From: a virus
Direction: 5' to 3' (one strand)
DNA length: 28,695 nt
Virus record (IMG/VR): IMGVR_UViG_3300025282_000178
Span: 1-28,695 of that record
The notes beneath the pieces are model-generated. The model worked only from the letters and a program-made list of their open reading frames with translations. It was not told where the DNA came from and searched no databases. Of this stretch, positions 1-23,609 are shown piece after piece (positions within the stretch are counted from its first letter, which is position 1; each line of letters starts with the position of its first letter). Both the position numbers and the translations under genes were made by a program.

Positions 1-21
1 ATAGATGCCAGACGAGACTAA
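1..21 (+). CDS. 3' end of an upstream gene (partial)
   Basis: The first 21 bases read in frame as Ile-Asp-Ala-Arg-Arg-Asp followed by TAA. The TAA overlaps the ATG of the next gene (TAATG), the same coupling used at nearly every later junction, so this is probably the end of another late phage gene. Six residues are too few to assign a function. Confidence 0.3.
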   Translation: MDARRD

Positions 22-266
22 TGGATATAGCTCAATTAATAGCAGACTTTGGGTTCCCAATTGTGGCAATGGTTGGTCTTGGTTATTTTGTTTACTTTGT
101 TTGGGTTATGATCACAAGGGTTATAAACCCAACCATTAAAGATATGCACATCACACTTATTAAACTAATAGATCAAATAAGAATGTTAGATAACGATATG
201 ATTAGATTACAACAAAAAGTGAACACAGTTTTACAAATAAAAGAAAACGAAAAGAAAAAGAAATGA
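21..266 (+). CDS. Small membrane protein, holin-like
   Basis: An 81-residue protein with one hydrophobic segment at about residues 8-32, rich in Phe, Val and Gly. A predicted helical, charged region follows, and the tail ends in a Lys run. One N-terminal membrane helix followed by a soluble helix resembles small phage holin-like proteins of the BhlA/UviB type, but no diagnostic motif is visible. It starts inside the stop of the preceding gene and ends in an ATGA overlap with the csgF-like gene, so it is translated with the curli-like cassette. It could equally be a small inner-membrane partner of the secretion cassette. The holin assignment is inference from size, topology and nearby spanins. 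Confidence 0.45.
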   Translation: MDIAQLIADFGFPIVAMVGLGYFVYFVWVMITRVINPTIKDMHITLIKLIDQIRMLDNDMIRLQQKVNTVLQIKENEKKKK

Positions 267-736
267 AATGGCTACTTTATTATTTGATACTTTTTTTACT
301 AGGTTTTACTGCGACAGCATCTGGAGATGAGATAGTTCAAAGTTTTAAAAGCCCTAGTTTTAGTGGCATTAGTACGTCTTCACATTATTTAACCATAGAT
401 GAGCAAGAAAAGTCTCGGCGAGATGAAATCGCTGAAGATATAGAGAACGCTTTAAAAGAAGCGGAGCGAGAAGCAGATAACACGACTCTTGCTAAATTTT
501 TAAGAAATCTTGAAAGCAGAGTATACAGTCAGCTTTCAAGAGACATAGCAGAGTCTTTATTTGATTCTGATAAAGGTGGAACGGGGGGCAGTATCGTGTT
601 GGAAGGCAGCACTATAAAGTTTGTTAATGACGGAACCAGTATAACGCTTACTGTTATTGATGAAGACGGGACAATAACTGAGATTATTATTCCCGTAGGG
701 ATATTTGGAATATGTTCAGACGACTGTGGAATTTAA
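263..736 (+). CDS. csgF: CsgF-like curli assembly protein
   Basis: A 157-residue protein with an N-terminal signal peptide of about 21 residues. The mature N-terminus carries FKSPSFSG, matching the FRNPNFGG element of Escherichia coli CsgF that inserts into the CsgG barrel. The C-terminal half has the CsgF pattern: a helix (about residues 85-105, LESRVYSQLSRDIAESLF), then a beta-rich part including TSITLTVIDEDGTITEIIIP. In curli systems CsgF sits at the outer face of the CsgG pore and couples secretion to fibre nucleation. At 157 residues it is slightly longer than E. coli CsgF (about 138), mostly through extra charged residues in the linker. The start forms ATGA with the preceding stop, and the end overlaps csgG by 25 bases. 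The assignment rests on residue patterns plus the adjacent csgG. Confidence 0.85.
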   Translation: MKWLLYYLILFLLGFTATASGDEIVQSFKSPSFSGISTSSHYLTIDEQEKSRRDEIAEDIENALKEAEREADNTTLAKFLRNLESRVYSQLSRDIAESLFDSDKGGTGGSIVLEGSTIKFVNDGTSITLTVIDEDGTITEIIIPVGIFGICSDDCGI

Positions 737-1542
737 GCCTACTGGCTTTATTGCCTTTTATCCTATCAGGATGTGCTAGTTTTGCCCCGGTGGGACACTC
801 AGGATGTGCTGATATTCTTGAGTGTGTTGAAGAACCAGAGGTTGTTAGACCCACACAAAAAAAATTAATAGAGCTAAGACCACCTAATCAACAAGCTGTG
901 GTCGCTGTTTATAATTTTATGGATTTAACTGGGCAACGTAAAAGTTCACAAAAAATGGCTTTATTCAGTACCGCAGTTACCCAAGGAGCTGACAACTATC
1001 TTATAGATGCCCTTAGAAGTGCAGGAAATGGCACATGGTTTGTTGTTGTAGAACGATCTGCACTAGATGCTTTAACCAGAGAACGACAGCTTATAAAGCA
1101 AACCAGACAGACCTATGATGGCGAGAATGGAAATACACTAAAGCCTTTATTGTTTGCTGGAATACTAATAGAGGGTGGAATTGTTCAATACGACACCAAT
1201 ATTGGTACTGGCGGGAATGGGGCTAGATACTTGGGTATAGGCTCTAGTAACCAATGGAGAAAAGATGAAATTACTGTTTCTTTAAGAGCTATTCTTGTTC
1301 AAACAGGAGAGGTAATGATAAATTGTATGACAAGCAAGACTGTGCTGAGTGCGGGCGTGAGCCGAGACGTGTTTCGTTTTGTTGAAATGGGCACTGAACT
1401 TGTAGAAGTTGAAACAGGCTACACAGAAAATGAAGCTATAGGTTACGCAACTAGATCAGCAATTGAAGAAGCAGTCTATACCTTAATTATGAAAGGATTA
1501 GAACAACAAATGTGGGATTTTAATTATGAAGAAACTAATTAG
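712..1542 (+). CDS. csgG: CsgG-like outer-membrane curli secretion pore
   Basis: A 276-residue lipoprotein with lipobox L18-S19-G20-C21, so it is likely acylated at Cys21 and placed in the outer membrane. The body follows E. coli CsgG closely: VVAVYNFMDLTGQRK, FSTAVTQGAD, WFVVVERSALDALTRERQ, then GGIVQYDTNIGTGGNGARYLG, ITVSLRAILVQTGEV, SKTVLS, VFRFVEM and YTENEAIGYATRSAIEEAV. CsgG oligomers form the channel that exports unfolded curlin subunits. In the constriction loop the Phe before Ser-Thr-Ala-Val is kept. By my alignment the Tyr and Asn that E. coli has nearby are replaced by Gln and Leu, so the pore lining may differ. The length matches CsgG (277). The gene overlaps csgF by 25 bases and the curlin gene by 17 bases. 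Confidence 0.93.
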   Translation: MFRRLWNLSLLALLPFILSGCASFAPVGHSGCADILECVEEPEVVRPTQKKLIELRPPNQQAVVAVYNFMDLTGQRKSSQKMALFSTAVTQGADNYLIDALRSAGNGTWFVVVERSALDALTRERQLIKQTRQTYDGENGNTLKPLLFAGILIEGGIVQYDTNIGTGGNGARYLGIGSSNQWRKDEITVSLRAILVQTGEVMINCMTSKTVLSAGVSRDVFRFVEMGTELVEVETGYTENEAIGYATRSAIEEAVYTLIMKGLEQQMWDFNYEETN

Positions 1543-2209
1543 TTTTATAGCAATCTTTGCTGTTTCTGCAAGCTATGCTGGCAATAACGATATTTACATA
1601 ACCCAATCAGGAACTGGGCTGACAATGAACGTAGATCAGATTGGTGATACCAACAAGGTGGGTACGTCACAAGCAAGGGCTACCTTTACGGGTACCTCAA
1701 TGACCGTGGACATCGATCAAGTGGGCGATAGCAATACAATGGCAGCTTCAGTGGCTCAAGGTAATAGCACCTCATTCACAGCAACACACACTGGAGATAG
1801 TAATACAACTACCCTAGCTTTAGGAGCGACAGGCGATGTTGCCAATACAGATTTTGATTATGCTGCAACAGGTGATTCTAATGTTTTAACAATGACTCAA
1901 GGCGCAGCAGCCACAGCAACCGCAGGTAATCAGGATATAGTGGTCGCAGGTACTTCAAATAATATTAATGCAACTTGTGAAGTTGTAGGTTGTATAAACA
2001 ATTGGAATGTTGATGGGGATTCAAATGATATTGATACTACACAAACGGGAAACTCAGATCATGCCATAACCGCGATTGTAACTGGTAGCACCAATAATAT
2101 AGACATAGATCAGACCAATAGCACTGGCTCGGTATCTGATGTGGTAGTTATTACATCAACTACAAGCAATGGGACTATAGACATAGACCAATGCACAAGT
2201 GGCTGTTAA
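1526..2209 (+). CDS. Curlin-repeat secreted protein 1 (CsgA/CsgB-like)
   Basis: A 227-residue protein with a Sec signal peptide ending SYA (cleavage after about residue 18). The mature part is repetitive, low in complexity and rich in Asn, Asp, Thr, Ser and Gly. Irregular units carry curlin-type signatures such as MNVDQIGDTNKVG, VDIDQVGDSNTM and IDIDQTNSTG, that is, an alternating strand, I-D-Q, then G-x-x-N. Curlin repeats stack as a beta-solenoid amyloid fibre, and this is the likely substrate of the CsgG/CsgF pore. It has two Cys pairs (CEVVGC in the middle and CTSGC at the end), unlike the Cys-free E. coli CsgA, so disulfides or a capped fibre end are possible. The gene overlaps csgG by 17 bases and the FecR gene by 19. 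A tail-fibre origin is less likely given the signal peptide. Confidence 0.8.
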   Translation: MKKLISFIAIFAVSASYAGNNDIYITQSGTGLTMNVDQIGDTNKVGTSQARATFTGTSMTVDIDQVGDSNTMAASVAQGNSTSFTATHTGDSNTTTLALGATGDVANTDFDYAATGDSNVLTMTQGAAATATAGNQDIVVAGTSNNINATCEVVGCINNWNVDGDSNDIDTTQTGNSDHAITAIVTGSTNNIDIDQTNSTGSVSDVVVITSTTSNGTIDIDQCTSGC

Positions 2210-3291
2210 TCGCTTTAATTTTTTCATTAAACTCTTATGCAGAGATAGGTGAAATATCGGAATTAAGAGGAAATGGAGAAGTTCTACGAAAAGATCAAGC
2301 AGATAAACTACTTGCCAAGACTGCTCTTGGTATTTTCAGCTATGATGATGTGCGCACTGGTAATGGTCGTATTGGCATTACATTTCTTGATTCTACTATT
2401 ATTCGTCTTACTGAGCATAGCAAGATTATTATTGATGAGTATATCTATGATCCTGATCCAAGCAAAAGCAGAATGGCGCTCAAAATGGCAGGCGGAACAG
2501 CCAGATTTATTACTGGTGCGTTGGGAAAAATAGATAAAGAGAACATTTCCATTGAGACACCCAGTGCCTCGATTTTTATTAGGGGCACAGATTTTACAAC
2601 CACAGTTGATGAACTAGGAAGAAGCCTAGTTATATTACTGCCTAGCCCTGACGGCAGTAGCTCTGGTGAAATTACAGTAGAAACATTAGCGGGCATTGAA
2701 GTATTAAACCAACCGTTTCAAGCCACCATGGTCAGTATGTCGGAAAGCCCGCCTACTAAACCAGTTACCTTGTCTAATATGACTTTGGGTTTTATAGATA
2801 ATCTTTTAATAGTGACCCCTCCCGATGAGGTACAACAAGCGGTAGACGAACAATCACAAAGCTCAAGCAATGTACTCGATGCCGATTTCTTAGAAGAAAA
2901 CGATTTAGATGATGACAGTGATTTATCTAAAGACGAGTTGCAAGAGGAGATCACCAGACTGGATATAGACTTATTGGCAGTAGACTTTTTGCAAGACCTG
3001 CTAGAAATGATTGAAACAGTCGCCGCAGGCGGTAAAGATGACGGCGATGCAGGAGAGTTAGATGGGGTAAAAATAGAAGGCATTATCCCCGGCTTTGACC
3101 CAAATGCTCAAGTTTATACTTTTGTAGAAGGTGAAATACTTACTTTATTTAGGCAGGTAGAAAACACAATTGATTTAGAATTAGATAAGTCAGGCGGATA
3201 TAATATAGAAATTCTTTCTGCTGGAAAACAAATTAGCATTAGAACAAATGGGGGCGGTGAAAATGAGATTATTATTAATCAGTCTGATTAG
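2191..3291 (+). CDS. Periplasmic or secreted FecR-domain protein
   Basis: A 366-residue protein with a signal peptide ending SYA and no further membrane segment. Residues of about 50-165 form a FecR domain (PF04773-type): SYDDVRTGNGRIGITFLDST, a GGTARFITGA segment and the characteristic ETPSASIFIRGTDF. A very acidic linker follows (about 225-255, LDADFLEENDLDDDSDLSKD). The C-terminus IRTNGGGENEIIINQSD resembles a curlin repeat, so the protein may dock onto or cap the fibre made by its neighbours. There is no FecI sigma factor or TonB receptor nearby, so classical iron signalling is unlikely. FecR proteins also occur beside CHASE2 cyclases in bacteria, as recalled from general knowledge, which fits the cyclase two genes downstream. 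The ATG start lies inside the curlin 1 gene and has a weak ribosome site, so coupled translation is likely. Confidence 0.85.
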   Translation: MHKWLLIALIFSLNSYAEIGEISELRGNGEVLRKDQADKLLAKTALGIFSYDDVRTGNGRIGITFLDSTIIRLTEHSKIIIDEYIYDPDPSKSRMALKMAGGTARFITGALGKIDKENISIETPSASIFIRGTDFTTTVDELGRSLVILLPSPDGSSSGEITVETLAGIEVLNQPFQATMVSMSESPPTKPVTLSNMTLGFIDNLLIVTPPDEVQQAVDEQSQSSSNVLDADFLEENDLDDDSDLSKDELQEEITRLDIDLLAVDFLQDLLEMIETVAAGGKDDGDAGELDGVKIEGIIPGFDPNAQVYTFVEGEILTLFRQVENTIDLELDKSGGYNIEILSAGKQISIRTNGGGENEIIINQSD

Positions 3292-3967
3292 CTTGAATCT
3301 CTACGCGGGTGATAACAATGTTGAGATAAGAACGAAAGGCAGTTCTTCGCTTATACATATTGACCAAATTGGCTCAGGAAATACGGCTAGGGTTTGGTGT
3401 GGTTTATCTGAAGGCACTTACACTACCCATAATTGTAGTAATGCAGAAATAGATATAGATCAAAATGGCACAGGGAACACTGCTAGAGCCTATAGCCAAG
3501 TGGCTAATCACACAGGTAACGAGTATAAAATAGATCAAGATGGTAACGATAACTTCGGATACATTGATGCTGACGATGATTCAAATGATATGGATATTAT
3601 ACAAAACGGCAACGATAATGATGCCGAAATCTATATGCAAGGGGACGATAATGTTTATAAGATCACCCAAACAGGCGATGATAAAGAAGGCGAGATAAGG
3701 GCTTTTGGTGACGATTCAGAGTTTACTATAACCCAATCAGGGACAGGCGAACACTATGCCAAGATTTATGCCAGTGGTTCAGCAGATAATAACGATGCGA
3801 CCATAACTCAAACAGGTAGTGGAGATCACTATATGAAGCTAAACTTCTATACCGATGATTATAATGTGGATGCCACACAATCTGGTGCTACTAACAAAAG
3901 CATTACTGTTAATTATAATTGTTCCACAAACTGTAATAAAACTGTAACTATCAATCAAGGTGACTAG
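3263..3967 (+). CDS. Curlin-repeat secreted protein 2 (CsgA/CsgB-like)
   Basis: The start at 3263 is preferred over 3248 because the GGGGGCGGTGA stretch immediately upstream gives a ribosome site and the protein then opens with a proper signal peptide (MRLLLISLISLNLYA). The 234-residue product has at least seven irregular curlin-like units, for example IHIDQIGSGNTA, IDIDQNGTGNTA, YKIDQDGNDN, YKITQTGDD, FTITQSGTGEH and ATITQTGSGDH. These keep the I-x-Q-x-G-x-x-N/H ladder expected of an amyloid beta-solenoid. It is strongly acidic and has two Cys pairs (WCG with HNC, and NCSTNC near the end). It is a diverged partner of curlin-repeat protein 1, so the pair could play major-subunit and nucleator roles like CsgA and CsgB. 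Which is which cannot be told. It overlaps the FecR gene by 29 bases and the cyclase gene by 8. Confidence 0.8.
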   Translation: MRLLLISLISLNLYAGDNNVEIRTKGSSSLIHIDQIGSGNTARVWCGLSEGTYTTHNCSNAEIDIDQNGTGNTARAYSQVANHTGNEYKIDQDGNDNFGYIDADDDSNDMDIIQNGNDNDAEIYMQGDDNVYKITQTGDDKEGEIRAFGDDSEFTITQSGTGEHYAKIYASGSADNNDATITQTGSGDHYMKLNFYTDDYNVDATQSGATNKSITVNYNCSTNCNKTVTINQGD

Positions 3968-5738
3968 ATTTTTCCAGTTGTTCGTTATTATTGTCTTATT
4001 GGGTGTACCTTTGGTACAGCAATGGACACCGCTTCAAATATTAAAACTCAAGACCTTTGATACGTTTGTTACAGAACAAAAGCCTTCTGGTTATTTTTCA
4101 ATCCTTAATATTACTGAAGAAAATGTTGAGGTAGAAGGCGGTTATCCGTTTCCCAGAAAACGATTAGCTGAGATACAGGATGACCTTGTAGCACAAGGGG
4201 CATTAGGGGTCGGTTGGGTTATTAGCTTTCCGCAGAAGGATCGTCTTGGTGGCGATGTGGAGTTTGCCAAGAGTCTTGCGTCTGCGCCTAGTGTGGTCGC
4301 AACTTTTGAAAACGATAACGGCACTTATCCAATGACCACAGGTACAGTTATTTTGGGCAAGGATCATGGTGGGTTTAAGGCTAAAGGTGTGGTACAAAAT
4401 ATCCCCTTACTTCGTGAATCGGCTTACGAGGGCATAGCAGTAGCTCCCACAGAAGTTGACCAATTAGTTAGGCGTATGCCATTATTACTAAGAACCCCTG
4501 ACGGATGGGTTTCTGCCTACGGCACAGAGGTTCTAAAAGTTTTAACTGGTGCGGACACCTACCTAATAAAAACTTCAGAAGCAGGTATACAAGAGATTAG
4601 AGTTAAGGGATTGCCGCCAGTTAAGACCGATACCTTGGGCAGAAAATGGATCAGTTGGGTCAACACACCTGAATTTTCTCTAACAGAGATTAAAAGCACA
4701 GAGCTTATTAAAAATCGTTTTGTGTTTGTCGGTGTCACAGCAAAAGGGGTTATGCCTCAAATAGCAACGCCTGCGGGTCTTTTAGAACCACACAAAATAC
4801 AAACAGCGTTGTCTGAAAGCATTTTAATAGAAGACAGCCCATTAATTCCTGATTATGCTTTGCTCGCTGAGTTAGGTATATATCTATCGACAACGGTTCT
4901 GGTTTGGTTTTTTCTAAACTTCTTTGGTGTCACATGGGGTTTGGTATTCTTTTTGCTTACAAACGCTCTAATCGCATATTTGGGCGTTTATTTTATCCAG
5001 TCTAATTTATTAATCGATGTTACTTGGTCGTTAATAGCTGGTTTTATTACAGGGTCTATTGCGTTTTACTTGAATTTTAGAGAGCAGTACAAGCTCAGAC
5101 AGCAGATTAAAAAGCAATTTGAACATTATCTTGATCCTAGACAAGTTAAAAAATTACAAGATAACCCAGAGCTGCTTAAATTAGGTGGCGAAAAAAGATA
5201 CGCAACCTATTTGTTTACCGATGTTAGAGGGTTTACCTCTATGTCTGAGTCGTTACCGCCAGAAGATGTCACCTACATTATGAATAGAGCTTTGACAGCA
5301 CAACAAGAATCGGTACAAAAATACGAAGGTATGGTTGATAAATACATAGGCGATGCAATGATGGCAATATTTAATGCGCCTTTAGACCAGCCTGCCCATG
5401 AAAACTTAGCAATTGACTGTGCATTAGACATTATGAAAAACATGGAAGAGCTAAACAAAGAGCTTAAAGGTAAAGACTTACCACCAGTAGCCATAGGTAT
5501 TGGCATTAATTCAGGTGAGGCAGTAATTGGTAATATGGGTAGTGATAGTCGGTTTGACTATACAGCTATTGGCGATGCGGTAAACACGGCAGCACGACTT
5601 GAATCGGCAACTAAAGAGGTGGGTGTTGATCTTCTTATAGGAGAAAGCACTGCTCAATTTACAAAATTTAAGTTAAACTTAATATCAACAATTAAAGTTA
5701 AAGGCAAGGCTGATGCCTTGGACGTATATACAGTATAG
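3960..5738 (+). CDS. CHASE2-domain class III adenylate cyclase
   Basis: A 592-residue membrane protein. It has an N-terminal membrane helix (about 4-20), a periplasmic CHASE2 sensor region (about 28-290; F-D-T-F near its start, PFPRKRLAEI, and FVFVGVTAKG near its end), three closely spaced helices (about 297-372) and a cytosolic class III cyclase domain (about 405-592). The catalytic set is complete: metal-binding Asp421 (FTDVRGF) and Asp465 (KYIGDAM), purine-selecting Lys461 with Thr535 (DYTAIGD), and transition-state Asn542 and Arg546 (VNTAAR). Lys plus Thr is the class IIIb adenylate-cyclase pattern. It should make cAMP in the host cytosol in response to a periplasmic cue. The start is GTG, read through coupling with the curlin 2 stop. 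It ends the curli-like cassette, 7 bases before the next membrane protein. Confidence 0.93.
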   Translation: MTRFFQLFVIIVLLGVPLVQQWTPLQILKLKTFDTFVTEQKPSGYFSILNITEENVEVEGGYPFPRKRLAEIQDDLVAQGALGVGWVISFPQKDRLGGDVEFAKSLASAPSVVATFENDNGTYPMTTGTVILGKDHGGFKAKGVVQNIPLLRESAYEGIAVAPTEVDQLVRRMPLLLRTPDGWVSAYGTEVLKVLTGADTYLIKTSEAGIQEIRVKGLPPVKTDTLGRKWISWVNTPEFSLTEIKSTELIKNRFVFVGVTAKGVMPQIATPAGLLEPHKIQTALSESILIEDSPLIPDYALLAELGIYLSTTVLVWFFLNFFGVTWGLVFFLLTNALIAYLGVYFIQSNLLIDVTWSLIAGFITGSIAFYLNFREQYKLRQQIKKQFEHYLDPRQVKKLQDNPELLKLGGEKRYATYLFTDVRGFTSMSESLPPEDVTYIMNRALTAQQESVQKYEGMVDKYIGDAMMAIFNAPLDQPAHENLAIDCALDIMKNMEELNKELKGKDLPPVAIGIGINSGEAVIGNMGSDSRFDYTAIGDAVNTAARLESATKEVGVDLLIGESTAQFTKFKLNLISTIKVKGKADALDVYTV

Positions 5739-5745
5739 GTGAATT

Positions 5746-6141
5746 ATGAGTGATGAGCATTATCCAACCGGCAGATTTGGCGGCGACATGGATCGCAATG
5801 AAGTCGAAATGGACCTTAGTAAGTTCATGGCGATGGTGCAAGAAATTGGTGCACTTAAAGACAAGATCAGGGACTTAGAAGATGTTAATAACAACAACCC
5901 TTATCAAAAGATTATCTTTGTGGCTCAAGCTGTTGATAGCTGGAGAATCTTTCCTAGAGCCTTTTTGTCTATTTATATGTACTTGCTCTATTACACAACC
6001 TTTTGGTTTATGGATTTACCAGAACCTAGTTTTGAACAATCGGGTTTAATATCTATTGTTGTTGGTGCAGGTGCAGCATGGTTTGGATTATATGCAGGAA
6101 CATCAGGAAGCTCAAAGAGCTTTAAGGGTGAAAAAGAATAA
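5746..6141 (+). CDS. Two-helix membrane protein, holin candidate
   Basis: A 131-residue protein. The N-terminal half is soluble with a heptad-like stretch (DLSKFMAMVQEIGALKDKIRDLE). Two membrane helices follow: FPRAFLSIYMYLLYYTTFWF (about 73-92) and a Gly-rich second helix, ISIVVGAGAAWFGLYAG (about 102-118). Membrane proteins of this design, with an Arg-Ile-Phe-Pro-Arg entry and an AGAAWFGLY exit, are common next to spanins in marine phages as I recall, and are usually considered holin-like. Position supports this: the two spanin genes follow within 600 bases. It is a better holin candidate than the gene at 21, but a second membrane protein of other function remains possible. A ribosome site (AGGTGA) lies just upstream. 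Confidence 0.5.
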   Translation: MSDEHYPTGRFGGDMDRNEVEMDLSKFMAMVQEIGALKDKIRDLEDVNNNNPYQKIIFVAQAVDSWRIFPRAFLSIYMYLLYYTTFWFMDLPEPSFEQSGLISIVVGAGAAWFGLYAGTSGSSKSFKGEKE

Positions 6142-6153
6142 ACGGAGAATAAT

Positions 6154-6321
6154 ATGGCTATTGGTTTAAGTAATTGGTTTAAGAAAACTTTTCTTGGTTA
6201 TGAAGAGAAAAGGGTTCGTTCCAGAGATGAAGATGGCAAATATGTGGGTGATGATAAATCAACGCCTAATATTAATGAAGCCTACACAACTGTAAACGTC
6301 AAAATAAAAAAAGATAAATGA
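6154..6321 (+). CDS. Small conserved-looking protein, 55 residues
   Basis: A short gene with a good ribosome site (GGAG at 6144-6147) and ATG at 6154. It encodes a 55-residue basic protein beginning MAIGLSNWFKKTFLGYEEKR and ending in a Lys-rich tail. The middle holds RDEDGKYVGDDKSTPNINEA. Its TGA overlaps the ATG of the i-spanin gene (ATGA), so it is translationally linked to the lysis genes. An amphipathic N-terminal stretch (LSNWFKKTFLG) could touch the membrane. I recognise no family. Its job in lysis is inferred only from position. Confidence 0.65.
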   Translation: MAIGLSNWFKKTFLGYEEKRVRSRDEDGKYVGDDKSTPNINEAYTTVNVKIKKDK

Positions 6322-6740
6322 AGCTGGCTCTAGTTTTAGGGGGACTTTTATTTGTCTCCGTTTCTATTAATGCGATTGTGTTCACTAAATTGGACAAAGC
6401 AAAAATAGAACTACAAACCGCTATCAGTAATCAAGCGGTACTTGAAAGAACTATTCAAGAGCAAAACGAACAGATTGTAAAAGCGCTTGAATCGGCTAAA
6501 AAAACTCAAGCTCAAATTCAAAACTTGAACTCCCAGTATTCTGCAAGCCAAGCGCAAGTTACTAATTTAAGAAATAAGTTTGCTAAACACAATCTTGAAG
6601 GTATGGCGCTCGCTAAACCAACCTTGTTACAAGGCAAAGTTAATAAGGCTTCGGCGAGAGTAATTGCAAATCTAACCACAATAACCAATCCAGACCAATT
6701 CAATGAAAAAGCTGCTGATAATACCATTACTACTAATTAA
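6318..6740 (+). CDS. i-spanin (Rz-like inner-membrane lysis protein)
   Basis: A 140-residue protein with one N-terminal membrane helix (about residues 3-22) and a long periplasmic coiled coil (about 25-85, with many Gln/Lys/Glu heptads). A conserved patch LRNKFAKHNLEGMALAKP follows, then VNKASARVIANLTTIT. This patch is typical of Rz-like spanins in marine and T4-like phages, as recalled. The i-spanin spans the periplasm and binds the outer-membrane o-spanin to disrupt the outer membrane at the end of infection. The o-spanin gene starts inside its 3' end, the usual nested arrangement. Its presence shows the host is Gram-negative. Confidence 0.75.
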   Translation: MKLALVLGGLLFVSVSINAIVFTKLDKAKIELQTAISNQAVLERTIQEQNEQIVKALESAKKTQAQIQNLNSQYSASQAQVTNLRNKFAKHNLEGMALAKPTLLQGKVNKASARVIANLTTITNPDQFNEKAADNTITTN

Positions 6741-7086
6741 CGGGTGTGGCACATATTCGCTTTTAGGTGAGTTGGCAGACAGACAACCACAAGTTAAGCC
6801 TGTGGAAGTGGTCAGTGTGGCAAAAAGAACACCAATCTACCATCCACCGCTGCCAGAACCCATTGAATCGGCTGCGATTGAGTGGCGAATACTCTCTCCT
6901 GATGTGATGCAGGAATATTTAATCGCAATTGAGGCTGGAGAAGAACCAAGAGTCGCGTATTATGGATTAACTTCTCAAGGTTATGAGAATTTATCGATGA
7001 CAATGGGCGAAGTTACCCGATACATAGAACAAATATTACACATTGTAGGATATTACAAAGATATTGACGAAGAAGAAGAGGAATAA
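6703..7086 (+). CDS. o-spanin lipoprotein (Rz1-like)
   Basis: A 127-residue lipoprotein with a short signal peptide and lipobox L11-I12-N13-G14-C15. The mature N-terminus continues with a proline-rich region (RTPIYHPPLPEPIES), then EWRILSPDVMQEYL, and ends in an acidic run. Lipobox, proline-rich stretch and a start nested 38 bases into the i-spanin gene are the marks of an o-spanin, the outer-membrane partner of the i-spanin. It is longer than lambda Rz1 and similar to larger o-spanins of marine phages. The stop (TAA, 7084-7086) abuts the ATG of the next gene with no gap. Confidence 0.75.
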   Translation: MKKLLIIPLLLINGCGTYSLLGELADRQPQVKPVEVVSVAKRTPIYHPPLPEPIESAAIEWRILSPDVMQEYLIAIEAGEEPRVAYYGLTSQGYENLSMTMGEVTRYIEQILHIVGYYKDIDEEEEE

Positions 7087-9474: not shown

Positions 9475-11568
9475 TTGGCAAGAAGAAAGTATTTAGGTAG
9501 AGCAAATGAAGAATTAGATGCTATGTTTGCGGAGCTTGAGTCTATTGACAGGAGCACAAAAACAGGTAGAAGAAAACACCGTGCTTTATCTAATAAAATA
9601 AGACGTAAAAGGGAAGATAGAATTTTATCTGGAATTAGAGGTTTGTTTGGTTCTAGGAAATATCCTGTTCCAGCAACCGCTTCAGGCGCTGCATCAACAA
9701 TGGGTTTTCCGGGTGTTCCTGAAAGCCCTATTGGGATCGGAACTATGGCAGAAGCGCCACCTGTTCCTGATATTCCAATAGAAGAAATTACTGTTGATGC
9801 TAAAAGAAGGAGGAGAAGCGAACCAAATATAGAGCTTGCCGAACTTCCTGTTACTCAGAGTAGAGCGCCATCATTAAGAGCACAGGTTCCATTTGGAATT
9901 TATACTGGCGAATTGGCAGAACAATTTGGGAATGAAACAGAACCACAAAAAAGCATGATATCTAAATTAGGTAGAAATCAACTTAGAAGCCTTGAAAGAA
10001 GAAAGAAAAGAGTAGCTCAATATCCAGATGCCTATCCGCCTGATTATGCAACTCCTGAAGGAATGTTTAAGTACGCAGAAGGTAAAACCATAGAAGGAAA
10101 CAGAATGATAGGCGAAGGCGGAACTCTATTTGATCCAACTGATCCTACAGATTTAGCTTTACTGGGATTGGGAATGGCACCTATACCCGGTGCAAGAATA
10201 GCTGCTGGCGCTGGCAAACTTAGGAAATTAGCAAAACTAAAAGATTTTCGTAAGTCTAATTTTATAAGAGATAATCAGACAAGAGATATAGTGCATAAAT
10301 TAGCAAACCTAAAATCTGGTATGAATCCTAAAAATATGAAATTTGATCCAGTATTTACTGGTGCTGACGCTCCTCTTACATGGGCACAATTAGGAGCGAG
10401 AGCAAAAACAAAAAGCGGTGTAACAGCACTACAGCCAACAAGAGAAGCATTAGAAGAAATGGCAGAGAAGCAATTATTTGAAGGGGTTAAAAAAGGAGGT
10501 CTTGGAATTACTGCTCTTGCTGGATATATGGCAAACAGAGATACTTCTAAAGACGAAAAAGAGATAAAAGAATTAACAGAAGAAGAAATGGATAAAATGG
10601 AAAGAATATTATCTGAAATTGAAAAAGAAAAAGCATTTTATGGAGAAGATGTTGATGCTTGGAGTCCTGAAAATATGAACAGTAATTATGCAGGCGGTGG
10701 ACAACTAATGGGTCATGCACAACAGCTTGCCAATGCAGGTCGTGGTGAAGATACCATGTTAATGCACGTTACTCCTAGCGAGGTTCAAGGCATTGCATCA
10801 TTAGCTCCCGGCATGATGACCACTAATCCACAAACAGGATTGCCTGAAGCTGGAATTTTTAAAGATATACTTGGTTTTGCTTTACCATTTTTAGGCACAA
10901 TGGTTGGTATTCCACCGTGGTTGAGTGGCGCAGTCGGCGCAAAACTTAGAGGTGGCGACTTTAAAGATATGGTACTTGGTGCAGGAACTGGTGCTTTGAT
11001 GGGTAAACTTGGTGGCAAGTTATCTGAAGTACCTGATATTGGTGCAGTTAATCTTGCTAATGAGGCTGCAACTACAGCCCTATCTAGTCCAGAAACTTTT
11101 TCGCAAGCAATGCAAGGAATTGGAGAAGAGGGATTTAAAAATATTGCTGCTAAAGCTGCAATTGATCCTAATTTGTTACAAACAGCAGTAAGCGGAGGAG
11201 CTGACCCTCTTTCTTATTTATCTACAGTAGCTAAACCAGCACAGATTTCTTCTTTTGCATCAGGATTATCAGATGTTGCTCAAACAAATCTTCCTAATAC
11301 TTTTGGTCAAAATATTAAAAACATAGGCGCTGGACTTCCAGCAGTAACAGATGCGCTAATGAGTCCTGAAGGTATGCTTACAATAGCAGGAACAGGATTA
11401 GGCGCTACTCGCGATGCAACCAGAAGATGGGATCAAAGCATATTAGACAGAGAAGAACAAAGAAAAAAAGAAGAAGAAGAGCTTTATCGTATGTACCCTG
11501 AAAATATACCTTATAGGGGTGGTGGATCACTTTACAAGAATCGTTATATTAATGGGAACTGGAGTTAA
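9475..11568 (+). CDS. Large internal or structural virion protein
   Basis: A 697-residue protein. The start is TTG at 9475, chosen because AGGAG (9464-9468) lies six bases upstream and the reading begins right after the previous stop. The N-terminus (1-60) is very basic ([25 protein letters not shown]), suggesting nucleic-acid contact. A hydrophobic module sits at residues of about 216-250 ([16 protein letters not shown], then [14 protein letters not shown]), followed by a charged helix (about 360-385). A conserved-looking segment has [18 protein letters not shown] and [15 protein letters not shown], then Gly/Ala-rich potential membrane stretches (about 460-510). This mix fits an internal or ejected virion protein. 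It shares the DP-module with the protein at 15697. No enzyme motif is seen. Confidence 0.6.
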
Positions 11569-11570
11569 TT

Positions 11571-14087
11571 ATGGCAGCACGACCTAAAACAACAGGTGTT
11601 AAAACTCCTACTCCGAGAGTAACAAGAAGACCTGATAGAGAGTGGATAGAGGAACAACCACGCTTTGAAGGAGATAACCCTCGTTTTAATATACCTGCTC
11701 CCGGCACATATATGCCTCCACAATTTGTTGCTGATCCAGAAACTATTGGTCAACCAGAATTGTTCGGAACAGATTTACCTCCAATTACCCCGCCCCCGCC
11801 ACCTATGATTCAACCACCTAGTGTCGGTACACTACCAACTTTTGATCCAAATTTAGGACAACCTCCTCCAGAGTCCTTTGGTATAGGCAATACTTTGATG
11901 CCGCCAGACCCATATGCCTCTCCATATTTTAATGATCCTTATTCTTATCTTCCTGATGAGCCTCAGCCTTATTCATATATTCCTGAATCAGATGTTAGAA
12001 CTGCGGGAAGTGGCGCTGGAATAGGAAGCGTTACCAACAATCCTTTTAATCCAAATTATGGGAGAACTGGCGGACCTAATAGAAGTGGTGGTAATAATCC
12101 AATATACAACAACCCAATGAACAATATGGGAAATCAAAATATAGTACCGACAGCAGCAAGAACTCCTGTTGCTCCACCACCCGGTTACAGACCGGGCATT
12201 GATCCTGAATGGAATTATTTTCCTAATTCAAATCCGCCTGCAACAACAATGGGTCAATATCCTTATGGCATTACAACTCCTGCTAACTTACCAAATTTTG
12301 GTAATGCTTTAGCTGGGGTTGAAAATTTAGATTTTTCTAATTTTGATTTATCCAATTTAGATTTATCAGGCTTAGGTTTTTCTCAACCCTCAACCCCTTC
12401 TGTGCAACAACCGGAAATGCCTCAGATAGCACAGCCAACAATGCCAGAAATAGACTATGATCTTCTGGCTAGCAAGATTAATCTTCCCAGTCAACCTGCT
12501 TTTGAAATGCCAGATTATAGTGATTTAAGCGAAAGATTGGCAGGGATAGAAACTGGTTTAGGTGGATTACAAAATAGATTCCAGAATTTTCAGGCTCCTG
12601 AATTTAAAGCTCCAGAAATTAATTACGATCTTTTGGCAGGTAAAATTAATATGCCAGATTACACACAACAATTTGAAAACCTACAAACTGGTCTAGGCGG
12701 TCTAGGACAACAGATAGGAAATATGCCGTCATTCCAGATGCCAGATTACTCTCAGCAATTCGAGAGCTTACAAGGAAGTCTTGGTGGATTAGGAGAACAA
12801 ATAGGTGGATTACAGACTCCTAGTTTTGAGATGCCTGATTATAATCAGCAATTCGAGAATTTACAGCAACAGATAGGAGGCATGGGTTATGGCGGACCTA
12901 GTTTGGAAGACATACAGGGAATAATGCCTAGTTATCAAACGCCTGATTATTCTTCGCAATTTGAAAATCTACAACAACAGATAGGTGGTCTTGGTTATGG
13001 TGGTCCAAGTTTAGAGGACATTCAAGGAATAATGCCATCGTATCAAGCTCCTGATCTTAGTAACTATATGACTGGGGAAGCATTGGAATCAGCGATTCAA
13101 AATGATCCTCGCTTGCGTGGACCACAGGGACTACAGGGACTACAGGGACTCCAAGGAATGCAAGGTCTCCAAGGTCTCCAAGGAATGCAAGGACTAGCTG
13201 GAGCTATAGGGGCACAAGGAATGCAAGGCTTAACAGGTGCCGCAGGTGCTCAAGGACTCCAAGGCATTCAAGGAGAGCAAGGCTTAACAGGTGCTATGGG
13301 AGCCACAGGACTAACAGGAGCTGCCGGCGCACAAGGTTTACAAGGGCTTCAAGGATTACAAGGACTCCAAGGGCTTCAAGGACTAACTGGAGCGACAGGT
13401 GCTATGGGAGCTATGGGAGCTACCGGAGCACAAGGGCTTCAAGGAATGCAGGGTTTACAAGGAGATATAGGTTTAACAGGGGCGGCTGGAGAGTCTATTG
13501 ATCCTTCAGAGCTTGAAGCATTAATTGCTGCAAGCCAACAGTCTTATGATCCTTACAATCCAATGCTTGGTCCAAGCGATAGACCTCTAGGCTTTGCAAA
13601 GGGCGGATTGATTCGATATCAAGAAGGAGAAGGAATTGCTGGGTTAGGAGATGATGCTGAGATGACAGAAGGCAATCAACAATTGATAGAAGCTACCATA
13701 ATGACTATTCAAGGGATGGCTCCAGATCAAGCAACAGCCGATGCCATTATTAATCAGTTTATTGGATTATATGGACAAGAAGCATTTATGGCTTTAAGAG
13801 AACAGGTATTAAATCCTGATGGTGGAGCACAAACTCAAGGAATGATAGAAGGATTTGGCGGTGGTATGGATGACTTTGTTCAAGGGGTTGCTGGCAATCA
13901 AGATAGAATAGCCGCATCACCCGGTGAATATATAGTGCCAGCCGATGTTGTCTCTCAATTAGGGGATGGCAATTCTACTGAAGGCTCAAGAAAGTTGGAT
14001 GGAATGCTAGAGAGAACTCGGATGGCGAAGACAGGCACAATAGAACAAGCGCCACCTATAGATAGTAGAAGAGTATTGCCCGCATGA
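11571..14087 (+). CDS. Collagen-like virion protein with tandem repeats
   Basis: An 838-residue protein. Residues 1-250 are Pro/Asn/Tyr-rich and probably disordered. Then comes a set of degenerate repeats built on PDYxxQFExLQ plus GGLG, including two nearly identical 36-residue units. Residues 517-642 are 42 uninterrupted Gly-X-Y triplets (mostly [15 protein letters not shown]), a collagen-like stalk that should trimerise. The C-terminal part has [14 protein letters not shown] and the segment [19 protein letters not shown] followed by [15 protein letters not shown], an ending I recall from many marine phage proteins. Collagen-like stalks are typical of phage fibres, but the C-terminal segment is also found in internal virion proteins, so a surface location is not certain. 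The stop overlaps the next ATG (ATGA). Confidence 0.7.
12852..13058 (+). repeat. Two-copy 36-residue tandem repeat in coding sequence
   Basis: The first unit begins near 12852 and the second at 12960, a 108-base period. Both encode [10 protein letters not shown], then [18 protein letters not shown] and a PD end. The proteins differ at only two of about 34 positions (Met/Leu and Thr/Ala), while about 20 bases differ, mostly at third codon positions. Looser versions of the same unit precede it from about 12500. Confidence 0.85.
13119..13496 (+). repeat. Collagen-like Gly-X-Y coding repeat (42 triplets)
   Basis: A 378-base stretch encoding 42 consecutive Gly-X-Y triplets with no interruption. 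X is usually Leu, Ala or Met and Y is usually Gln, Thr or Ala. Only one Pro occurs, in the first triplet. At DNA level it reads as repeats of a CAAGG-containing 9-mer, so copy-number change by slippage is likely. Confidence 0.95.
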
Positions 14088-14539: not shown

Positions 14540-15700
14540 ATGGGCGGAAGTAGCGGTGGCTCTCAACCACAACCAGTGGATCAAACAATAACACAAACAC
14601 AGTTTCCCGCAGAGGCGAAACCTTATTATAGTCGTCTCCTCTCAAGAGGAGAAGCGGAGAGTTTGCAGCCTTATGCGGCTTATCCAGCTCAACGATTAGC
14701 TCAGTTTGCTCCAGAAGAGCAACAAGCCTTTGGTATGACCACACATCTTGCCAATCAGGGAACGCCGTGGTCAATGCAACAGGCACAGCAAACCGCAGGT
14801 CAACAAGCAAGAGGTAGACCTTTTGAGCCGTGGACAGGATTTCAACCACAAATACCTCAACCGCGCATACCACACCCAAGGATGTGGGGACCTAATTTAG
14901 GTGTAGACGACAGAGGATTAAGACAGCCTATGTATGGTGGACAAATGGGTCCGCAACAACAAATGATGCAACAACCAATGACCCCTGCTCCACAGCCTTA
15001 TGGAAGAGGAAGACAGCCGTGGCAACAAGACACAACGCTTATGGGCGCTAATTATGGAATACCCGGCATGAGCACAGGCTACCAAAGCCCAAGAGAGCGT
15101 TATATGTCTCCTTATCAACAGGGAGTAACCGATATTGCCAAGGAACAAGCAATAAGAGATGCCAATAGAATGCGCTCAGAGATCGGTTTGAATGCCGCCT
15201 CACAGGGCGGATTAGGTGGCTATAGAGAAGGGATTGTAGAATCCAATCTCAATAGAGATTTAATGAGAAACCTAAGTAATATACAGACACAGGGTTTACA
15301 ATCTGGTTATCAAAATGCCCAACAAATGTTTGAAGCAGATCGTGCGGCTCGACTAGGACAAGAAGGTGCACAACTTGGTGCGGCTCAACTCTTAGGTGGG
15401 TTTGCTCCACAAGCACAGCAAATGGCACTTGAAAGAATCGGTGCTCTAGGCGGTGTCGGTGGACAAAGACGAGGCTTTAGACAAGCTGGAATGGATATTG
15501 GTTATGAGGACTTCCTTAGACAACAAGGTTATCCACAGCAACAAATCGGATTCCAAAGCAATATTATTCGTGGACTTAACTTACAACCATCACAGACTGT
15601 TAGTAGTTATGCTCAACGACCCGGCTTATTTCAACAAACATTAGGCGCAGGGCTTGGTGCTCTGGGTCTATATCAAGGCATGGGAGGGAGACAAGGATGA
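14540..15700 (+). CDS. Internal virion/ejection-type structural protein
   Basis: A 386-residue protein with a ribosome site AGGAG at 14529-14533. It is rich in Gln, Gly, Pro and Met. The middle and end carry ERYMSPYQQGVTDIAKEQA, then RDANRMRSEIGLNAASQGGL and YREGIVESNLNRDLMRNLS. This Y-x-S-P-Y-Q-Q-x-V motif followed by a long helix with a G-GG turn occurs in a family of podovirus and marine-phage internal proteins, as recalled. A role in the internal core or DNA ejection is likely, given the giant ejection-type protein two genes downstream. It has no signal peptide or catalytic motif. Its stop overlaps the next ATG (ATGA). Confidence 0.6.
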   Translation: MGGSSGGSQPQPVDQTITQTQFPAEAKPYYSRLLSRGEAESLQPYAAYPAQRLAQFAPEEQQAFGMTTHLANQGTPWSMQQAQQTAGQQARGRPFEPWTGFQPQIPQPRIPHPRMWGPNLGVDDRGLRQPMYGGQMGPQQQMMQQPMTPAPQPYGRGRQPWQQDTTLMGANYGIPGMSTGYQSPRERYMSPYQQGVTDIAKEQAIRDANRMRSEIGLNAASQGGLGGYREGIVESNLNRDLMRNLSNIQTQGLQSGYQNAQQMFEADRAARLGQEGAQLGAAQLLGGFAPQAQQMALERIGALGGVGGQRRGFRQAGMDIGYEDFLRQQGYPQQQIGFQSNIIRGLNLQPSQTVSSYAQRPGLFQQTLGAGLGALGLYQGMGGRQG

Positions 15701-17190
15701 GCCTAATTGATCAACAAAAGGAACTAGAATACTATCCTGATGAGGTATTAGCTCAGGAAATGATGCAACCCACTGGGATTGCTCCTAGCTTTTTGGTTGC
15801 TACTGAGATTAAAAGACGAAACGATATGCGTAATTCTTATCAAGCACAAATGAATCCACAGCCTCAAACAAGTGTGGTTGAGGAAGAGGCTATGGAATTA
15901 GGCGGAATTGCTAATGCTGATCCTAATGCAATGCAACAGCAAATGATGCAACAGCCTATGCCACAACAACAGATGCCACAGGGCGCACCTATGCAGATGA
16001 GAGAGGGTGGCGCTGTTCGGTATCAAGAAGGCGAAGATATTGATTTTGATGAAACAGGAGGCTTTATTAGAGGACCTTTGGGCAGGAAGATGCTTGGTAA
16101 AGATGGTTGGCTATATGACCCAAGCAGCAAAATTGATAATGCTTTGTTAGCTGCATCTGTGGTACTTCCTTTTGGTGGTAGATTAGTAACTGGTGCGGGC
16201 TTATTAGGAAAAGCTGGCATTAAGGGCGCTGTTAGTGGCGCCAAAGCATTAAAAGGAAAGATTGCTGAAAAATCTGCCGACCCAATAAAGAATCTTCTTG
16301 AAGGTATTGGTAGTTTTTCAACCAAACGGCTTGGATTTAAGCCTTCTTATGGGGGCGCAGGCTCAATACCCATGACAGAAGTTGGAAAACAAGCAATAAA
16401 AGGATATGGAAATCCGCTTCCATTATCTTTATCATCTCCATTCTGGTCAACAACCGCACCTATTGGTGCAGTCGGTGGACTGCTTTCTGGAGTTGGTGGC
16501 GAAGATTCAGGAATAGGAACCGAATCAGATGCTTCTATAATTGAAGATGTGAATGCTGAAACTATATCAATAGATGATATGACTATAGAGGACCTTCAAG
16601 CAGTGATAGCAGAAAGGCAAAATGACAACAGACTGCAAGAGCTTGCTGATAAACTATCCGCAGAAAAAACAGCAGTAGAAGATGCAGAGCGAGACAGAAG
16701 AGCAGCCCTACCAGAAATTGGAAGAATAATGGAAGATGCTATGGCGAATGTGCCTGAAAACGAAACCTTCCAAGACTATCTTTCTACATTAGAAGGTATG
16801 GAAGAAAGTCGTAAGGGTCAGGTTCTTATGGATTTAGGCGCAGCTATTGCTAATGCCAGTCATGGTGGTGATATTGCCAAAGGTTTCCAAGAAGCTGGTA
16901 CTAAAGCAAGAGCCGAACAGATTGAAGTAGCTAAAGAAAGAGCAAGAGTTCTTGGAGAATCAAGAGCAATGGATATTGATGTTGCTATTAAGATGGCAAC
17001 AATTCAAGCTGATATCGAAAATCGAACAGGAAGAACTTTACAAGAGTTGCTTCGTTTATTGCAAATAGAAGGAGTAGATTTTCTTACAGAGAATTATCCA
17101 GATAGCGCTGATTCAATTTTAGCTCAAATAGAAGAGGCAATAAAATTAACATTGCCACCAGTTCCAGAAAAAGAAGAGTCTCCTGAATAA
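15697..17190 (+). CDS. Virion-associated protein with hydrophobic module
   Basis: A 497-residue protein. The N-terminus (EYYPDEVLAQEMMQPTG, then PSFLVATEIKRRNDMRNSYQ) is a pattern I recall from marine-phage virion proteins. It is followed by a Gln/Met-rich linker, GGAVRYQEGEDID (shared with the collagen-like protein), and a hydrophobic module GWLYDPSSKIDNALL plus GGRLVTGAGLLGKAG (residues of about 137-172) shared with the protein at 9475. The C-terminal half is helical and charged, probably coiled coil (ERQNDNRLQELADKLSAEK, EDAERDRRAALPEIGR). An internal or ejected virion protein fits best. The gene is coupled by ATGA upstream and lies two bases from the next start. Confidence 0.6.
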   Translation: MSLIDQQKELEYYPDEVLAQEMMQPTGIAPSFLVATEIKRRNDMRNSYQAQMNPQPQTSVVEEEAMELGGIANADPNAMQQQMMQQPMPQQQMPQGAPMQMREGGAVRYQEGEDIDFDETGGFIRGPLGRKMLGKDGWLYDPSSKIDNALLAASVVLPFGGRLVTGAGLLGKAGIKGAVSGAKALKGKIAEKSADPIKNLLEGIGSFSTKRLGFKPSYGGAGSIPMTEVGKQAIKGYGNPLPLSLSSPFWSTTAPIGAVGGLLSGVGGEDSGIGTESDASIIEDVNAETISIDDMTIEDLQAVIAERQNDNRLQELADKLSAEKTAVEDAERDRRAALPEIGRIMEDAMANVPENETFQDYLSTLEGMEESRKGQVLMDLGAAIANASHGGDIAKGFQEAGTKARAEQIEVAKERARVLGESRAMDIDVAIKMATIQADIENRTGRTLQELLRLLQIEGVDFLTENYPDSADSILAQIEEAIKLTLPPVPEKEESPE

Positions 17191-21628: not shown

Positions 21629-22558
21629 TTATTCTACATCCACGAAAAGTGGAGCATCATTATAGAGTCGATCTCTGGACATCTCAGCATATTCATCGTT
21701 GAGTTCAATCAATATGGCATTACGACCATTTCGGTCAGCAACCAAGCCAGTAGTCCCCGCACCACCAAAAGGATCAAGAACAGTTCCATCTTCGGGACAA
21801 CCCGCAAGAACACAAGGCTTTATTAAATCAGGCGGAAACACAGCAAAGTGTGCGCCTTTAAATGGTTTTGTGGTGACAGTCCAAACAGATCGCTTGTTTG
21901 CAGTCTCATAAGAATCTTCTAATCCAGTATGTGGAGACAGCCCAGAACCTTCATTGTGGTATTTTCCATCAGTTCTATCCCTTGTTCCCCAATCTTCTTT
22001 CACTGGGTATTTGATTGCCTCATGATCGTAGTAATACTTCTTTTGTTTAGTAAGTAGGAAGATGTATTCATGTGCTTTGGTGCATCGGTCAGTCACACTT
22101 TCAGGCATTGGATTAGGTTTGTGCCATATAATGTCTTGTCTTAGATACCAACCATCTTCTCTTAAAGCAAAGGCAACCATCCAAGGAATACCCATCAAGT
22201 CTTTTACCTTAAACACTCCCCTCGCACCACCTGCTCTCGCTTGATGTCCTTGAGAGAGTTCTCCATGTTTCCATCCAGTATCGGAATCTCTTGCTCCAGT
22301 GTAGTGATTACTTGCATAAGAGTCCCCAAGATTTAACCAAACAGTTCCCTCGTCTTTTAGCACTCGTCTAACTTTCCTAAAGACTTCCACCATTTTATCA
22401 ACATATTCTTCTGGCGTTTCTTCAAGCCCTATCTGACCTTCTCTTTCGTAATCTCTGAGTCCATAGTAAGGCGGAGAGGTAATACAAGTATCAACTGACT
22501 TTTCAGGCAGTTGATCAAGCACTTCCGAACAATCCCCATTTAATACTTTAATGCTCAT
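21629..22558 (-). CDS. DNA methyltransferase, TSPPY type (class beta)
   Basis: A 309-residue protein from the ATG at 22558; a TTG three bases earlier is less likely. Motif IV TSPPYYGLRDY lies at residues of about 27-37 and the S-adenosylmethionine-binding motif I DPFGGAGTTG near 262-271. Motif IV before motif I is the order of beta-class amino-methyltransferases. TSPPY is common in N4-cytosine enzymes but also occurs in N6-adenine ones, so the modified base is open. The target-recognition part lies at about 80-220 (SQGHQARAGGARGVFKVKD, WHKPNPMPESVTDRCTKAHE). No restriction endonuclease is present, so self-protection or gene regulation is likelier than a restriction-modification pair. It overlaps the next methyltransferase by 11 bases and ends the leftward operon. 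Confidence 0.9.
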   Translation of the reverse strand: MSIKVLNGDCSEVLDQLPEKSVDTCITSPPYYGLRDYEREGQIGLEETPEEYVDKMVEVFRKVRRVLKDEGTVWLNLGDSYASNHYTGARDSDTGWKHGELSQGHQARAGGARGVFKVKDLMGIPWMVAFALREDGWYLRQDIIWHKPNPMPESVTDRCTKAHEYIFLLTKQKKYYYDHEAIKYPVKEDWGTRDRTDGKYHNEGSGLSPHTGLEDSYETANKRSVWTVTTKPFKGAHFAVFPPDLIKPCVLAGCPEDGTVLDPFGGAGTTGLVADRNGRNAILIELNDEYAEMSRDRLYNDAPLFVDVE

Positions 22559-23609
22559 CAAACAAACTTACTTGCATATTCTTCTGCACATCTTCCAATC
22601 TGGCACAAGCAATATCAAAATACTCTTGCTCCATTTCAATTCCTATAAACCTAAACCCTTCCAGTAATGCACCTTTGCCAGTGCTGCCACTGCCCATAAA
22701 AGGATCGAGAATAACACCACCTTTCGGTGTGACTAGGCGACATAAATACTGCATCAACTCTGTTGGCTTGACTGTTGGGTGGGTGTTTTTTCTTTTTGTT
22801 TCCCTCAAATTACCACTTCCAGTAAGCATTGAACCATCTGCTGTTGCACTCATAGCTCCAGTTCTAACTTCTTGGAAGCCATCCAACCCATCATCTCTAT
22901 CTTGCTTACTCGCTTTCGCACAATAGAAGTAGCGCGACTTATCACCGAATACATCTTGCACCAGCTCAGAACCATCGTGCATGACATTGGCAGGGAATCT
23001 GCCTTGTTCAGATGATGATATGTTTTTGCCTTCATAACCACCTTCATATACATTTTTTGCAGTCTTATCAGTCTTCCACTCACCTCGACCACCCAACCTT
23101 TTATCATCTACTTCTGGATTGATACCAACCCTACATTCATCTATGTTAATCCCACCAGTACCATGCTCTAGGACATTCTCAGCCACAGTTCCCTTAAATG
23201 GTTTCCTCGCCATGACAATCGGCTCGTGAGCTGGCTTGAGTGCTGTACCCCACCCTTCGTATTCTTTTACTTTCTTACCTATGTTATGCGACTTAGGAAA
23301 GCCACTGCCATAAAGCCACATCAATTGATCTCGTATCTCAAATCCAGCATCTTCAATCGGGATAACTCCCCTGTGATAAGTTCGTGAGCCAAAGAATGAT
23401 AGAAGGTGTCCACCTTGCTTGATGGATTGATATATTTTTTCCCATAACTCCTTTTGTGGCACATCATAATCCCATTGCTTGCCCATAAAGGATAAGCCAT
23501 AAGGCGGATCAGCCACACAACTGTCTATGTTTTCTAGGGATTCCAATGCTTCCATGCAATCGCCATGATAGATTGTGGCATCTCCAATAATTTCTTTTTC
23601 AATACTCAT
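22548..23609 (-). CDS. DNA N6-adenine methyltransferase, DPPY type (class beta)
   Basis: A 353-residue protein with ATG at 23609 and a strong ribosome site (AGGGAG). Motif IV is CVADPPYGLSF (residues of about 31-41), typical of N6-adenine methyltransferases. NTHPTVKPTELM precedes motif I DPFMGSGSTGKGA near the C-terminus. The order IV then I marks a beta-class enzyme. A long central region (about 130-275) with GRFPANVMHDGSELV is the likely recognition domain and is common in phage adenine methyltransferases, as recalled. It probably marks phage DNA against host restriction or affects replication timing. It is tandem with a second methyltransferase whose motif IV differs, so two specificities are expected. 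It overlaps the gene before it by 11 bases. Confidence 0.9.
   Translation of the reverse strand: MSIEKEIIGDATIYHGDCMEALESLENIDSCVADPPYGLSFMGKQWDYDVPQKELWEKIYQSIKQGGHLLSFFGSRTYHRGVIPIEDAGFEIRDQLMWLYGSGFPKSHNIGKKVKEYEGWGTALKPAHEPIVMARKPFKGTVAENVLEHGTGGINIDECRVGINPEVDDKRLGGRGEWKTDKTAKNVYEGGYEGKNISSSEQGRFPANVMHDGSELVQDVFGDKSRYFYCAKASKQDRDDGLDGFQEVRTGAMSATADGSMLTGSGNLRETKRKNTHPTVKPTELMQYLCRLVTPKGGVILDPFMGSGSTGKGALLEGFRFIGIEMEQEYFDIACARLEDVQKNMQVSLFDEH

Follow-up and report, generated by a model that had tools for sequence, protein, structure and literature searches.

The stretch of DNA analysed here, hereafter the window, is IMG/VR virus record IMGVR_UViG_3300025282_000178, a linear virus record of 28,695 bases, and the system in question is a curli-like (type VIII) secretion cassette encoded in it. 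At 263-5738 on the plus strand lie six consecutive open reading frames (ORFs), with overlaps of 8 to 44 bases between neighbours, which are assigned by Pfam, in this order, to CsgF, CsgG, a curlin-repeat protein, a FecR-domain protein, a second curlin-repeat protein and a CHASE2 adenylate cyclase. The cassette sits in a podophage late region as a single overlapping run. The ORF at 21-266 is also a cassette gene, because its homologues precede csgF and are found solely in cassette-carrying phage records. The members of the cassette present in the window are as follows:

21..266, + strand: P2, a cassette member of 81 amino acids (phrog_18771, E 1.2e-26)
263..736, + strand: CsgF (PF10614, E 8.8e-12, above the cut-off; export signal)
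712..1542, + strand: CsgG, the outer-membrane secretion pore lipoprotein (PF03783, E 2.3e-53; LSGC lipobox)
1526..2209, + strand: curlin-repeat protein 1, a CsgA/B-type substrate (PF07012 in three stretches, E 3.6e-4; export signal)
2191..3291, + strand: FecR-domain protein (PF04773, E 2.6e-10)
3248..3967, + strand: curlin-repeat protein 2, a CsgA/B-type substrate (PF07012 in five stretches, E 2.8e-16; export signal)
3960..5738, + strand: CHASE2-domain class III adenylate cyclase (Pfam CHASE2, E 2.1e-23, and Guanylate_cyc, E 6.1e-20; class III cyclases of the PDB)

The first-pass annotation of this DNA had described a phage-encoded curli-like cassette with its own sensor cyclase, and the ORF list, the Pfam families and the gene order agree with it for all six named genes and their coordinates. 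Its family calls for CsgG and the cyclase hold at the E-values given above, and the profile search for the CsgF and curlin families, which it had named beforehand as a refuting test, matched both (PF10614 and PF07012). It had also supposed that such a complete set is unusual, and this is not so: an identical gene set and order had been described by 2022 (PMC9599517), and it is also present in the cultured phages HTVC008M and Melnitz, the latter a Methylophilales phage. That is to say, the cassette of the window is real and intact, and it is of the published kind.

It has been reported by Wittmers et al. (2022) that the cassette occurs in nine HTVC023P-type genomes and in pelagimyophages, that one or two genes named histidine kinase always stand ahead of CsgF, CsgG and CsgA/B, and that FecR follows CsgA/B, frequently with a second CsgA/B and an adenylate cyclase after it; the type VIII secretion system (T8SS) module was detected at all 65 GOV2.0 stations and was expressed in metatranscriptomes (PMC9599517). 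The window has the same genes and order as that module, and its relatives are likewise HTVC023P-type. In the records of HTVC008M and Melnitz, the order P1-P2-CsgF-CsgG-curlin-FecR-curlin-cyclase is found as in the window (for P1, see below), with identities to the window of 43-47% for CsgG, 35-37% for FecR and 32-33% for the cyclase. Among 50,697 phage records, FecR and the full-length cyclase of the window are matched in six HTVC008M/Melnitz records only, and its CsgG in the same six and in one 1.5-kb record. The latter, OR851715.1 (1,499 bases, labelled Salmonella phage S.Kent 1-2-1), is unannotated and encodes a CsgG at 39% identity; it may be bacterial DNA labelled as phage. HTVC008M and Melnitz are myophages of the Kyanoviridae, whereas the window belongs to a podophage, and in the two myophages the neighbours of the cassette are DNA-metabolism genes on one side and a tail or hypothetical gene on the other, the stretch read around it containing no annotated lysis gene. 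This confirms that marine phages of unrelated types repeatedly carry a whole secretion system along with its substrates, and the position of the cassette between lysis genes is local to the lineage of the window.

The order also recurs in the viral contigs found. The junction from the cyclase into the downstream genes is repeated in independently assembled IMG/VR contigs, five of which (L002, L004, L005, L006 and L029) run on into the spanins, while L007 and L028 keep the same junction as far as the contigs reach; their cassette genes are 74-100% identical to those of the window. Since this junction recurs and longer relatives encode phage terminase and portal proteins, a contig chimera is very unlikely, and a chimera with a bacterial chromosome was rejected on the recurrence of the cassette-spanin junction in other assemblies. 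The longer relatives L004 and L019 have a TerL 58-62% identical and a portal 49-50% identical to those of 023Pt_psg01, an HTVC023P-type podophage, and it is on these two contigs that the placement of the window rests, as the window itself holds no terminase. When compared with the nearest relatives (L004-L007) by the Nei-Gojobori method, CsgF, CsgG, both curlins, FecR, the cyclase and P2 have ratios of nonsynonymous to synonymous substitution (dN/dS) of 0.03-0.10. All cassette genes are thus under purifying selection, which means that the curlins and the cyclase are maintained.

As for the secretion apparatus, the profile of viral CsgG matches the E. coli CsgG structures 3x2r, 4uv3 and 6l7a over the full length (E 2.4e-68), and the mature N-terminus of CsgF, DEIVQSFKSPSFSG, is kept among viral CsgF proteins. 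The first-pass annotation had listed CsgE and CsgC as missing, and in agreement with it neither model matched the window, two longer relatives or the complete genomes of HTVC008M and Melnitz; CsgD was not searched for. Nor did the two models match a Caulobacteraceae genome bearing a curli operon, with E. coli as a positive control, and CsgE and CsgC are not universal: alphaproteobacterial modules are reported to lack them (PMC9599517). Compared with the curli system of E. coli (csgBAC-csgDEFG), the cassette has the CsgG pore, CsgF and the curlin-repeat substrates in common, whereas it is without CsgE and CsgC and has FecR, the CHASE2 cyclase and P1/P2 in addition. The repeat motifs in both curlins exceed those in shuffled sequences (2000 shuffles for curlin 2). 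The PF07012 match of curlin 1 is marginal, at 20.9 bits against a gathering cut-off of 20.7; its AlphaFold2 model is a regular all-beta structure (pLDDT 83, pTM 0.81), for which Foldseek returned no significant match, CsgA (8enq) reaching an E-value of only 4.7.

The FecR-domain protein consists, according to AlphaFold2 and hydropathy, of an export signal, a FecR beta domain, a disordered linker of low confidence and a C-terminal beta domain that ends in a curlin-like strand. Its FecR beta domain resembles the periplasmic domains of FecR-family anti-sigma factors, with Foldseek matches to 4m0h/4m0n and to PupR (6ovk) at E-values of about 1e-4. No hydrophobic 19-mer is found past the N-terminal signal, so that neither a transmembrane helix nor a cytosolic anti-sigma part is predicted, and the FecR domain alone matches Pfam in all 17 homologues. 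Judged from this predicted build, the protein departs from the usual anti-sigma factor. The C-terminal tail [IV]x[IVL]xQ is present in 17 of 17 homologues. In the window the codons of this tail overlap the start of curlin 2, and the tail persists where there is no such overlap (L022, L025 and L040). A FecR-curlin fusion was considered and rejected: Curlin_rpt of Pfam had no match, and a curlin hidden Markov model scored the FecR tails no higher than shuffles. The apparent likeness of the tail to curlin is thus kept as a hint.

The cyclase has, by hydropathy, an N-terminal transmembrane segment, a CHASE2 domain predicted to be periplasmic, three further transmembrane segments and a cytosolic cyclase domain. 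In the alignment, the catalytic residues D421, K461, D465, N542 and R546 are all present; N542 is nearly invariant across the viral cyclase set and the other four are invariant. In the pairs nearest to the window, the membrane segments and CHASE2 are more variable than the catalytic domain. The cyclase is 95% identical in L006 and 76-77% in L004 and L005, whose other cassette genes are 86-95% identical, and it is CHASE2 and the membrane part that differ most from L004 and L005; this drop in identity suggests an allele replacement of the sensor.

Upstream of csgF, P2 has one N-terminal hydrophobic segment followed by a polar, probably coiled-coil tail. A homologue lies directly upstream of csgF in HTVC008M, in Melnitz and in nearly all other viral-type loci, usually preceded by a more distant paralogue, P1, to form a tandem pair; as the window begins inside the cassette, its own copy of P1 would be off the contig edge. 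Of the viral-type loci with 1.2 kb or more of DNA before csgF (n=37), 34 have both P1 and P2, the other three being two bacterial Caulobacteraceae operons and the contig L052, and P2 occurs in exactly six of the 50,697 phage records, the same six as the rest of the cassette. By position and number, the histidine kinase genes of Wittmers et al. (2022) are probably this P1/P2 pair. Those authors named the upstream genes histidine kinases, whereas the homologues here (n=20, 81-115 amino acids) are membrane proteins with no match to kinase catalytic or dimerisation models (HisKA, HATPase) up to an E-value of 10. The genes before csgF thus appear from their sequences to be small membrane proteins with no sign of a histidine kinase. 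The first-pass annotation had placed the cassette between a holin-like gene and the spanins; PHROGs matches support the spanin side, and the holin-like side falls away with the assignment of 21-266 to the cassette. P2 as the phage holin was rejected, for its distribution tracks the curli genes and its holin match is weak (phrog_4898, E 0.019). Together with a weak YvrJ match in one P1/P2 homologue (E 0.0099), that match leaves room for a holin-like membrane activity of the pair.

On the bacterial side, genomes were scanned with the alignment of viral CsgG, and 79 loci were kept. In two contigs of Caulobacteraceae metagenome-assembled genomes (MAGs), L034 and L035, the genes csgF-csgG-curlin-curlin-FecR-CHASE2 cyclase stand in a single run that holds a full-length FecR relative, and no P1/P2 was found anywhere in either genome; the families are the same as in the window, the gene order is different and P1/P2 are lacking. 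L034 is flanked by amidohydrolase, acyl-CoA dehydrogenase, TetR-type and cytochrome genes, and with such ordinary neighbours it looks chromosomal. FecR and the cyclase were said not to occur in bacterial T8SS operons (Wittmers et al. 2022), whereas L034 shows that they can; contrary to that statement they do lie inside bacterial curli operons, but rarely, and they are therefore likely to belong to the machinery and not to have been added by phages. Another 25 alphaproteobacterial csg loci have no FecR, cyclase or P1/P2. Viral FecR was matched strongly and along its full length by 2 of 249 family genomes and by 1 of 398 phylum genomes (the same genome); 120 of 385 genomes of the class matched more weakly, and there, among the matches listed, the FecR domain alone is covered, except in that one genome. 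In the CsgG tree, the viral sequences and L034 are grouped (100/99), and L034 nests among the viral ones (95/88) on a long branch; a single viral clade is, however, not rejected (p-AU 0.153), and the tree does not distinguish donor from recipient. L052, in a Pirellulales MAG, carries csgF-csgG-curlin without P1/P2 beside Hsp20, ClpS, heme oxygenase and bilin reductase genes, a gene set which points to a T4-like phage contig and not to a planctomycete. The Rhodobacteraceae MAG Water_Bin34 (G005; L041, L042, L048 and others) has five P1-P2 pairs on five contigs, probably because several phage contigs were binned together.

Taken together, we consider it reasonably probable that the cassette is a working type VIII secretion system that places fibres of curlin on infected cells, FecR and the CHASE2 cyclase serving as a periplasmic sensor pair. 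Late in infection, CsgG would assemble as an outer-membrane pore with CsgF at its mouth; both curlin-repeat proteins would pass the inner membrane by the Sec route of the host, exit through CsgG and build up amyloid-like fibres on the infected cell. The FecR protein, which carries an export signal, and the CHASE2 domain, both predicted to be periplasmic, may report the state of assembly or of the envelope as cyclic AMP (cAMP), and P1/P2 would be a pair of small inner-membrane proteins, a nearly constant addition on the phage side. An advantage would probably arise at the cell surface, either by holding cells or progeny together or by excluding competing phages. We infer secretion, fibres, the FecR-CHASE2 pairing, the cAMP output and the ecological benefit from what was computed, namely gene content, order, conservation, purifying selection, co-occurrence and domain architecture. 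This interpretation is favoured by the gene families, the order shared among HTVC008M, Melnitz and viral contigs, the published cassette with its expression, the dN/dS values and the CsgG profile, and also by the predicted beta-strand stack of curlin 1 and by a modelled FecR fold that lies near periplasmic signalling domains and has no membrane segment. Four points weigh on the other side: CsgE and CsgC are absent, dS is near saturation in the more distant pairs, the model of curlin 1 has no significant Foldseek match to CsgA, and clumping was not observed in cultures of Melnitz (PMC9004378).

It is also possible, though rather doubtful, that the cassette is a bacterial curli operon with a built-in feedback sensor from periplasm to cAMP, made of FecR and CHASE2, in which FecR, with its curlin-like last strand, would read the passage of curlin or the assembly of fibres and the phage-added P1/P2 would gate or energise secretion. 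Sibling capture and lysis control have been proposed for csgG-csgF in pelagimyophages and Melnitz (PMC7029224, Zaragoza-Solas et al. 2020; PMC9004378, Buchholz et al. 2022). In the latter proposal, made for Melnitz by Buchholz et al. (2022), the CsgG-CsgF pore depolarises or opens the envelope to time lysis. The cassette does adjoin the spanins in the lineage of the window, the weak YvrJ and holin matches of P1/P2 point the same way, and no clumping was observed in cultures of Melnitz; however, both curlins, FecR and the cyclase are conserved and selected, HTVC008M and Melnitz have no annotated lysis gene in the stretch read around the cassette, and the phage of the window has spanins and a holin candidate of its own, so that we regard this proposal as improbable. 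The permeabilisation role suggested in the first-pass annotation, taken as a pore only, is weakened in the same way by the conserved, selected curlins and by the different neighbourhoods in the two myophages. An unlikely alternative of another kind is that cAMP is the main output, FecR and the cyclase reprogramming the host through cAMP-dependent regulators with the fibre genes secondary. The catalytic residues kept under purifying selection are consistent with it, as are the 3 bacterial loci, of 20 examined, in which CHASE2 or cyclase genes stand near FecR without being part of a curli operon, whereas viral-type full-length FecR was found in bacteria in two curli operons only, which ties it to curli and not to general signalling. 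An ungated CsgG pore admitting cofactors or other nutrients to the infected cell (proposed in PMC7029224 and PMC9599517) would fit the absence of CsgE, the periplasmic gate of E. coli, but CsgE is absent also from the Caulobacteraceae genome with a curli operon, and CsgF and two substrates would be needless and yet are conserved, making an uptake channel highly improbable.

What is newly added to the published cassette is P2 as one of its genes, the bacterial operons with FecR and cyclase, the build of FecR and the purifying selection. The P1/P2 pair and the link of FecR and cyclase to bacterial curli operons are worth following, and for anyone testing the cassette P1/P2 belong in any reconstitution.

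Downstream of the cassette, an unassigned membrane-type protein is followed by a small ORF, the two spanins and a structural protein (annotated as a phage stabilisation protein in relatives). The neighbours outside the cassette that may bear on lysis are:

5746..6141, + strand: membrane-type protein (phrog_10198, E 4e-21)
6318..7086, + strand: inner and outer spanin (phrog_739, E 1.5e-5, and phrog_812, E 7.1e-11)

Stretches related to 5746-6141 are found in 355 phage records, and this candidate beside the spanins is likelier to be the true holin than 21-266. No tRNA was found and promoter-like sites were not more frequent than in shuffles, and the first 9 kb had no megablast match among phage records; terminator-like sites numbered 9 against 5.2 expected. 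Further to the right, ORFs of 697 and 497 amino acids (9475-11568 and 15697-17190) have no PHROGs or Pfam match, and beside them is a collagen-repeat tail fibre at 11571-14087. At 21629-23609 on the minus strand, two adjoining DNA methylase genes with full PF01555 matches open a leftward block after the rightward structural genes.

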